Origin: Spironucleus salmonicida
Lineage: Eukaryota > Fornicata > Diplomonadida > Hexamitidae
Length of the DNA: 64,000 nt
Reading direction: 5' to 3'
NCBI GenBank assembly: GCA_000497125.2
Contig: CM035316.1
Location: 1,676,001 to 1,740,000, forward strand
Within the stretch, counting starts at the first letter, position 1, and each line of letters starts with the position of its first letter. The notes under the pieces were generated by a model. That model had not been told where the DNA came from, ran no database searches, and was given only the letters and a program-made list of their open reading frames with translations. This document shows, piece after piece, positions 31,652 to 32,748 of this stretch. The position numbers were made by a program, and so were the translations under genes.

Positions 31652-31736
31652 CGCCATCCAGCCAGAGTTGAACTGGGGGTCATAGACCAAACTGGAGTTG
31701 AAATCCAGCGCGAAGACCGCTTCACCACAAGATGGC
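31652..31736 (-). tRNA. Selenocysteine tRNA, anticodon UCA
   Basis: The 85-nt minus-strand sequence folds as tRNA-Sec. A 9-bp acceptor stem pairs GCCATCTTG with CTGGATGGC (one mismatch). The long 6-bp D stem is GTGAAG/CTTCGC with a CGGT loop. The anticodon stem is CTGGA/TCCAG with loop TTTCAAC, so the anticodon TCA (plus strand 31699-31701) reads UGA. The long variable arm is GGTC-TAT-GACC. The 4-bp T stem is CCAG/CTGG with loop TTCAACT, and the discriminator is G73. The 9/4 architecture, 6-bp D stem and G73 are the hallmarks of eukaryotic tRNA-Sec, charged by SerRS and converted via PSTK and SepSecS. It is not a UGA-reading tRNA-Trp, which would have a 7/5 fold. Confidence 0.93.
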
Positions 31737-31959: not shown

Positions 31960-32748
31960 ATGGAGGCTTGGTTAACTGCAGCTCGTATGAACGACATTCC
32001 AACGCTCACGCGCCTAGCCCCAATTTATCTATCTTCAACACACAATAACCAAACCGCTCTGATGCTCGCATGCCGATCCAACAACTTTGAGGCGGCAGAA
32101 TTTTTACTTGCCGAAAAGGACATTTTAGATGACCAAGATCGATCTGCGCTCTTCTACACCCAAACCCCGAGAATAGCGAATCTTCTGCTCTCGATAGCAT
32201 CGATTCCCGATCGTTCAGGGACCACTCCACCGCACCACTTCGCAGTTCAGCAAAACGTTCAAGTATGTCGTGTTTTTTTCGAGTATGCCCTCCTACGTGA
32301 CACGAAGGGACGGACCCCTCTGCACATCGCTGCAGAACTTGGAAACTTCGAGATTTGCGAGATTTTCAGCGAGGCGATCGGCGCGAAAGACGACGAGGGC
32401 AAAGCTGCGCTCCTGGGGGCCGTCGCTGGAGGTTTCGTCGAAATCTGCAGATTTCTGAGCAGTGAAGTGGACGAAATGAGTTTGCGATTTGCGAGTTTTA
32501 GCGATCAAGAAATACTCGAAATTTTGGTCGGCAAAATTGAGGATCCGATGGCAATAAGCGCAGATACCAGACAGTTAGTATTTGAAAAATTGGGCCTAAA
32601 GGGATGGGGCCAATTTAACGGAGAGCAAGATGGCGAAATCCAAGTTGACGAGGACGTTGAATTCGAGGCAATTCGCCGTTAGATAATTGCGAACTAAGAA
32701 AAATTAGATATGTAGGATTAAAGTGAATTTAAGGTGGAGTTTGAATGA
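31960..32748 (+). CDS. Ankyrin-repeat protein, GC-rich body
   Basis: This 262-residue protein has about five ankyrin repeats in residues 1-170; the clearest are NNQTALMLACRSNNFEAAEFLL and KGRTPLHIAAELGNFEICEIF. Ankyrin repeats mediate protein binding. Residues 1-240 are GC-rich and use only CAA/CAG for Gln. The first TAG (32680-32682, after two Arg codons) begins an AT-rich 22-residue tail with five TAA/TAG codons, ending at TGA 32746-32748. With standard code the gene would end at that TAG. The start is the first ATG after the spacer. Confidence 0.88.

Follow-up and report, generated by a model that had tools for sequence, protein, structure and literature searches.

The window, a 64,000-nucleotide stretch of the Spironucleus salmonicida genome, contains a single tRNA gene, which ARAGORN called as tRNA-SeC with anticodon tca (31652-31736, minus strand). 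The only Rfam match in the window at the gathering threshold was RF01852 (tRNA-Sec), at 31653-31736 minus; it spanned the full model (positions 1 to 91) and scored 49.9 bits against a gathering score of 47 (E, 4.7e-07). An earlier note on this DNA had described a UCA-anticodon tRNA with a 9/4 fold, a 6-bp D stem, and G73, and had proposed a covariance search of the interval. ARAGORN, RF01852, and our own reading of the arms recovered all of these features, with one mismatch in the acceptor (Table 1).

Table 1. Arms and landmarks of the tRNA-Sec gene, in window coordinates
Feature	Position	Strand	Basis or remark
tRNA-Sec gene, 85 nt including discriminator G73 at 31652	31652..31736	minus	ARAGORN; Rfam RF01852
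Acceptor stem, 5' strand GCCATCTTG	31728..31736	minus	Pairs with 31653-31661, 8 of 9 standard pairs
D arm, 6-bp stem and 4-nt loop (GTGAAG CGGT CTTCGC)	31710..31725	minus	Arm reading
Anticodon arm, 6 bp including closing G-U	31691..31709	minus	Arm reading; Rfam alignment
Anticodon UCA, reads UGA	31699..31701	minus	ARAGORN, anticodon at tRNA position 36
Variable arm GGTC TAT GACC, 4 bp, 3-nt loop	31678..31688	minus	Arm reading
T arm, 4-bp stem, loop TTCAACT (RNA UUCAACU)	31662..31676	minus	Arm reading
Acceptor stem, 3' strand CTGGATGGC	31653..31661	minus	Arm reading

The D stem joins the anticodon stem directly, with no linker between them. The gene departs from the Rfam consensus twice: the eighth acceptor position is a U-U, and the variable region is short, with seven model positions deleted and a nonstandard first pair. 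We searched the whole genome (14,471,397 bases [14.47 Mb] in 37 contigs) with RF01852. Four matches had an E value of ≤0.001 among the 53 of 587 first-look candidates that were scored, and the gene in the window alone exceeded the cut-off. The other three were two copies of tRNA-Ser(gct), which scored 37.3 and so fell under the cut-off, and a tRNA-Leu(caa). We conclude that 31652-31736 minus is confirmed as a genuine tRNA-Sec gene of S. salmonicida.

The earlier note had also claimed that UGA is the only stop codon in this genome. Under translation table 6, the window has 208 ATG-started open reading frames (ORFs) of at least 90 amino acids, versus 4 under table 1, both counts including overlapping and antisense frames. 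The longest table 6 ORF has 1684 amino acids and 130 UAR codons, and the genomic match to SepSecS, described below, contains 21 TAA and 4 TAG codons and no TGA. A frame with 130 UAR codons and an enzyme match with 25 UAR codons and no UGA indicate that UAR is sense and UGA is stop, leaving little doubt that UAA and UAG encode Gln and that UGA is the only stop in S. salmonicida. Hence, the claim is borne out, and so is its corollary: since a real tRNA-Sec is encoded in a genome with UGA as its sole stop, Sec insertion and termination must be in competition at that codon. The gene beside the tRNA (window 31960-32748, plus strand) is a 262-amino-acid frame with just four UAR codons. Unlike its UAR-rich neighbors, it is open for 240 amino acids even under the standard code, and by eye it looks ankyrin-like and GC-rich.

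We searched the genome for the enzymes of the Sec pathway. A profile search for SepSecS returned one candidate and one match (PF05889, 261 bits), and the frame scored 372.6 bits against TIGR03531 (cut-off, 224.85). The best structure chains for the eEFSec frame, at C6:1246628, were archaeal SelB (4ac9; 4e-47) and human eEFSec (5izk; 5.5e-47). The best other elongation-factor chain reached just 3.2e-28, with EF-Tu chains far behind, and the score against the bacterial model TIGR00475 (158.8 bits) was below its cut-off of 242.25. Selenophosphate synthetase was found with TIGR00476 (281.7 bits; cut-off, 125), with no in-frame TGA in the match. At this locus, C1:1536303, we take the part before SelD to be NifS-like and the motif GCACK to be of the Cys type, in agreement with the fusion described in 2014. 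The protein is thus predicted to be a Cys-type NifS-SelD fusion, not a Sec-containing SPS2. Its NifS-like part lies N-terminal to SelD, an order also described for bacterial SelD fusions (PMC4561486); PMC3916229 places the NifS-like protein in the C-terminal end, unlike the order at C1:1536303. SepSecS, eEFSec, and NifS-SelD are all open frames.

Two further components were not recovered. For eukaryotic PSTK, TIGR03575 gave no candidates genome-wide, a negative limited by the loose first look. The only PF08433 protein in the genome carries the NCBI name KTI12; its best structure entry is 6qp0 (E, 1.2e-06), which we take to be the Kti12 structure, and it matches the archaeal PSTK model TIGR03574 weakly (28.5 bits versus a cut-off of 290.5). 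For SBP2, all seven PF01248 (L7Ae) matches at an E value of ≤10 read as other proteins, although a divergent domain could be missed by the loose first look: L7a, two Snu13-like proteins, two copies of S12, NHP2, and L30. Structure searches back the two Snu13-like proteins and NHP2; L7a, S12, and L30 are presumed identities, named by likeness. The two Snu13-like proteins are distinct (C1:833161 and C8:767868), and their best matches are Snu13 or L7Ae structures. One of them could bind SECIS in a genome that lacks SBP2. Such gaps have been described elsewhere: parts of PMC6627142 report a Cyanophora genome without SBP2 and two algae without PSTK. The complete set foreseen in the earlier note (PSTK, SepSecS, SPS2, eEFSec, and SBP2) therefore holds in part. 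SepSecS and eEFSec are present, selenophosphate synthetase is present but as the Cys-type fusion rather than SPS2, and PSTK and SBP2 were not recovered. The covariance score above threshold and the presence of both SepSecS and eEFSec, on which that note had made its identification depend, agree with tRNA-Sec.

The genome contains one gene with the expected UGA. At C4:620989-621216 minus, a frame beginning MEIKVVMCQSUGSMPRFKGL... has one in-frame TGA at codon 11, within a CxxU motif (CQSU, codons 8 to 11), and stops after codon 75. Read through the UGA, it scored 40.8 bits against PF10262 and 39.3 bits against TIGR02174. By these marks (the Rdx/SelW domain, CxxU, and the in-frame UGA), we assign it as SelW. 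The public protein record for this gene has 62 amino acids and lacks the first 13 residues; since it begins only with the Met that follows the UGA, the Sec residue is dropped from the record. A second locus, at C4:613425-613688 plus, holds a truncated, inverted copy ~7 kb from the intact gene. This copy keeps the C-terminal part, with no TGA in the match and without the CxxU start; an upstream reading frame ends with a TGA inside it. Family, DNA, and protein queries of the genome gave these two loci and no third. Two further 62-amino-acid relatives, 82% and 77% identical, lie on short ENA contigs. None of 74 pattern matches in viral contigs was confirmed as a SelW relative, and 1 of 25 in genome contigs was, as a partial match in a bacterial MAG. 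Other inverted copy pairs with equal scores, ~3 to 10 kb apart, occur at C5:818795/828538, C7:1120663/1125605, and C1:802238/805191 (among them tRNA-Ser, an EF-1-alpha-like gene, and a GC-rich stretch). The SelW pair (C4:613k/621k) is another such pair, diverged.

We looked for a SECIS behind the stop codon of the intact gene. The sequence directly 3' of the stop reads AAACUGAAGCU-GUGA-UGUGGGCAGGAU-AA-GCGCGAGCCCCUGCUAAC-UGAG, with the core of a hairpin, from GUGA to UGAG, occupying +18 to +57 after the stop codon. A published spacing rule for SECIS elements is NTGA-(10-13)-AA-(15-39)-GA (given in part of PMC2375036). The SelW hairpin obeys this rule, with spacings of 12 and 19, a helix II of 8 bp, and an energy of -9.6 kcal/mol, and it is the only negative-energy match of three in the 1000 nt of the SelW gene and its flanks (CC variant allowed). 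Its strength was equaled by 2 of 2000 dinucleotide shuffles of the 130-nt 3' region and by 4 of 1744 genomic windows of 130 nt, taken on both strands from the 64-kb window and six further genome regions. The truncated copy has a weaker hairpin at the same offset (19 of 2000 shuffles and 18 of 1744 windows as strong), with an AA-to-GA spacing of 14, one below the 15 of the rule, so that it needed a relaxed bound. Because the two copies are paralogs, their hairpins are not independent.

These figures should be read with the history of the descriptor, which was refined over four script versions. The first version found neither SelW copy, and the second found just the paralog. The third, tuned after the sequence had been seen, was matched by 0 and 2 of 1000 shuffles and by 5 of 1966 overlapping windows at -4.9 or lower. 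The last used the spacing of PMC2375036 but with an AA-to-GA lower bound of 14 rather than 15 and no CC variant, and it added a 7-bp minimum and a closing-pair rule that we set ourselves.

Genome-wide, the exact hairpin core is confined to the two SelW copies. One further match, at C6:46596, carries three mismatches and is at chance level; a reversed-pattern control gave five. In a 43-nt stretch that opens with the A preceding the stop codon and includes the stop, the copies are identical at 41 of 43 positions, compared with 144 of 168 aligned positions of the coding sequence with a 12-nt gap excluded (Fisher P = 0.12), and 43 of 56 third positions (P = 0.011). As the boundary of the 43-nt stretch was chosen by eye, this evidence for conservation around the stop is weak.

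Other measures did not single out the hairpin. Rfam SECIS_1 (RF00031) had no match near SelW, its genome best being 20 bits (E, 2.17) elsewhere, and no Rfam model matched either SelW region at an E value of ≤10. The 20-bit matches are twins, at C1:802238-802285 and C1:805191-805238, which we set aside as chance or repeat. Their surroundings, inspected in three frames around the first and as sequence for the second, are GC-rich by eye, and no gene ends convincingly ahead of the match. Plain folding of the SelW 3' region was no more stable than that of shuffles (z, 0.13 and 0.38; for the paralog, 0.04 and 0.99). The quartet UGAU/UGAG of the intact gene, with a G as its last base, misses the canonical UGAN/KGAW (a rule stated in part of PMC7409322), and the UGAC/UGAU of the truncated copy fits it. 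We conclude that the GUGA-type, SECIS-like hairpin behind the SelW stop is a candidate SECIS; it is not proof of one. The search for selenoproteins with SECIS that the earlier note had proposed thus yielded a SelW with UGA and a SECIS-like candidate, but neither a canonical quartet nor a SECIS_1 match.

The position of the hairpin conflicts with the 3' ends described for this organism. According to parts of PMC3916229 and PMC2874811, poly(A) in S. salmonicida begins ~14 nt after the stop, and the stop codon is part of the signal. With poly(A) at that distance, a hairpin at +18 to +57 would be absent from the mRNA. Hence, either the SelW mRNA has a longer 3' end or the hairpin is not a SECIS. 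We considered an unusual stop context through which SelW might escape the poly(A) signal. This idea was unsupported: the context score of the SelW stop ranked 13th of 39, and that of the paralog ranked 9th of 39. The 39 contexts come from longest-ORF genes in the window and three further regions, and at least one belongs to the frame ending inside the truncated SelW. Since the stop context of SelW is not unusual, sequence context alone does not decide the conflict. The context score of the Sec UGA was below all 39 stops, a comparison that is uninformative because the set contains no internal TGAs of other genes.

The conflict lends some weight to an alternative in which the tRNA is real but the SelW UGA is recoded with no SECIS in the 3' UTR, through a coding-region hairpin (SRE-like or bacterial-like) or by plain readthrough, 3' ends of ~14 nt leaving no room for a SECIS. 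We regard this as unlikely, if less so than the other alternatives below. Besides the reported poly(A) position (PMC3916229, in part) and the lack of an Rfam SECIS at SelW, it draws on a 2010 survey of S. barkhanus, the sister species, in which, as part of PMC2874811 states, ERPIN detected no canonical SECIS in the EST data set. A search that requires AUGA would miss a GUGA hairpin, which we infer may explain earlier null results. In the coding region, the 65-nt segment that begins with the Sec UGA folded more stably than its shuffles (z, -2.10; 5 of 200 as good), mainly through a CCAAGC...GCUUGG hairpin ~27 nt after the UGA on the minus strand (CCAAGC-G-UUCCU...GGAA-A-GCUUGG), but the first 42 nt from the UGA showed nothing (z, 0.02; 94 of 200 as good). 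The closeness of eEFSec to archaeal and human forms and the presence, right behind the SelW stop, of an element with the published eukaryotic spacing also argue against recoding of this kind. By eye, the truncated SelW copy keeps most outer-stem pairs of the coding hairpin, with one apparent G-C to A-U double change, one G-U, and one broken pair.

A second alternative is that the Sec system is decaying, with the tRNA and enzymes remaining while most SelW is produced in truncated form and PSTK and SBP2 are gone. The failure to recover those two proteins, the single intact UGA-containing SelW beside a truncated paralog with no CxxU, and a report that oxygen did not raise the expression of most Sec-synthesis and selenoprotein genes (PMC6397501, in part) are compatible with decay. 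However, the tRNA-Sec has kept its arms and scores above the family threshold, the SepSecS, eEFSec, and NifS-SelD frames are open, and the same part of PMC6397501 describes transcript changes for the eEFSec, SPS-NifS, and SelW genes; we consider decay improbable. That the gene is an ordinary suppressor-type or mis-called tRNA, such as a tRNA-Ser or tRNA-Trp variant with a UCA anticodon, is hardly credible: the acceptor U-U, the short variable arm, and a score just 2.9 bits over threshold point that way, but the 9/4 fold, the 6-bp D stem with no linker to the anticodon stem, the full-length Rfam match, the subthreshold tRNA-Ser copies, and the lack of TGA in the SepSecS, KTI12, eEFSec, and SelD matches all point to tRNA-Sec.

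We therefore favor, with high confidence, a Sec pathway that delivers Sec to the SelW UGA on mRNAs with a downstream signal, for which the GUGA-type hairpin is the best candidate. The tRNA, the code, SepSecS, eEFSec, NifS-SelD, and a SelW with UGA in its CxxU are all present in the genome. In the proposed pathway, SerRS would charge tRNA-Sec, a kinase step would make phosphoseryl-tRNA, and SepSecS would convert this with selenophosphate made by the NifS-SelD fusion. The Sec-tRNA would then be carried by eEFSec to the UGA at SelW codon 11. UGA would mean Sec only on mRNAs carrying the downstream signal, putatively the SECIS-like hairpin with its core starting 18 nt after the SelW stop, and would presumably mean termination elsewhere. 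The action of the hairpin as a SECIS, the identity of the protein that would bind it, and the insertion of Sec itself are the steps that we infer from sequence. A more specific version is possible but somewhat doubtful: a minimal GUGA-type SECIS may be read with no classical SBP2, perhaps by a Snu13-like protein or L30, on a SelW mRNA that bypasses the stop-coupled poly(A) signal. If so, 3'-end formation and recoding would together determine what UGA means. Should the hairpin be a SECIS, the system would be directly testable on a single short mRNA that has one UGA, one hairpin, and an expected clash with stop-coupled polyadenylation.

Much of this system is already in print. A putative S. salmonicida tRNA with anticodon UCA was annotated as Sec in 2007, with the remark that all 64 codons may code (PMC1805757). 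A 2010 study, mainly of S. barkhanus, described a "triple function of UGA" as sole stop, Sec codon, and poly(A) signal, together with a SelB-like S. salmonicida EST and a SelW with UGA in both species (PMC2874811). The 2014 genome paper listed one tRNA-Sec, pathway enzymes including PSTK, a SelD-NifS fusion, and three SelW paralogs, and suggested that Msr proteins may be selenoproteins; the word SECIS is absent from its main text (PMC3916229). Thus, the tRNA-Sec and its coexistence with a sole stop codon in S. salmonicida are not new, contrary to what the earlier note had implied; its mention of tRNA-Sec in some ciliates and in a hexamitid agrees with papers on Tetrahymena (PMC7409322, in part) and S. 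salmonicida. The open-access papers that we examined contain no prior report of a SECIS in Spironucleus or other diplomonads; subscription papers lay outside the search, so an earlier report may exist. The signal separating Sec from stop is undescribed in the open-access papers examined, and the candidate hairpin at SelW is what our analysis adds.

Compared with the published Spironucleus system (PMC1805757, PMC2874811, and PMC3916229, in part), ours agrees in tRNA-Sec, the triple use of UGA, SelW with UGA, the SPS-NifS fusion, SepSecS, and eEFSec. It differs in having a SECIS candidate, where no canonical SECIS was reported in 2010 for S. barkhanus; in two SelW loci, one truncated and with no UGA in the match, rather than the three paralogs listed in 2014; and in that PSTK, also listed in 2014, was not recovered. 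The hairpin itself resembles the SECIS of Ostreococcus in the unpaired apical AA and in the G that replaces A directly before the quartet, a G found in all but one O. tauri element; a long apical mini-stem is typical of nearly all O. tauri elements (parts of PMC2375036), whereas the SelW candidate shows no more than 2 bp in that place and is further set apart by a 3' quartet strand ending in G. The closest parallel in coding is Tetrahymena thermophila (PMC7409322, in part), which likewise reads UAR as Gln, has UGA as its only stop, and carries tRNA-Sec(UCA). It differs in being a ciliate and in having a reported SBP2-like L7Ae protein; its Sec-GPx12 has no detectable SECIS either. A single stop codon that also encodes Sec sharply tests the coexistence of recoding and termination, and Sec in a UGA-only code has a precedent in Tetrahymena.
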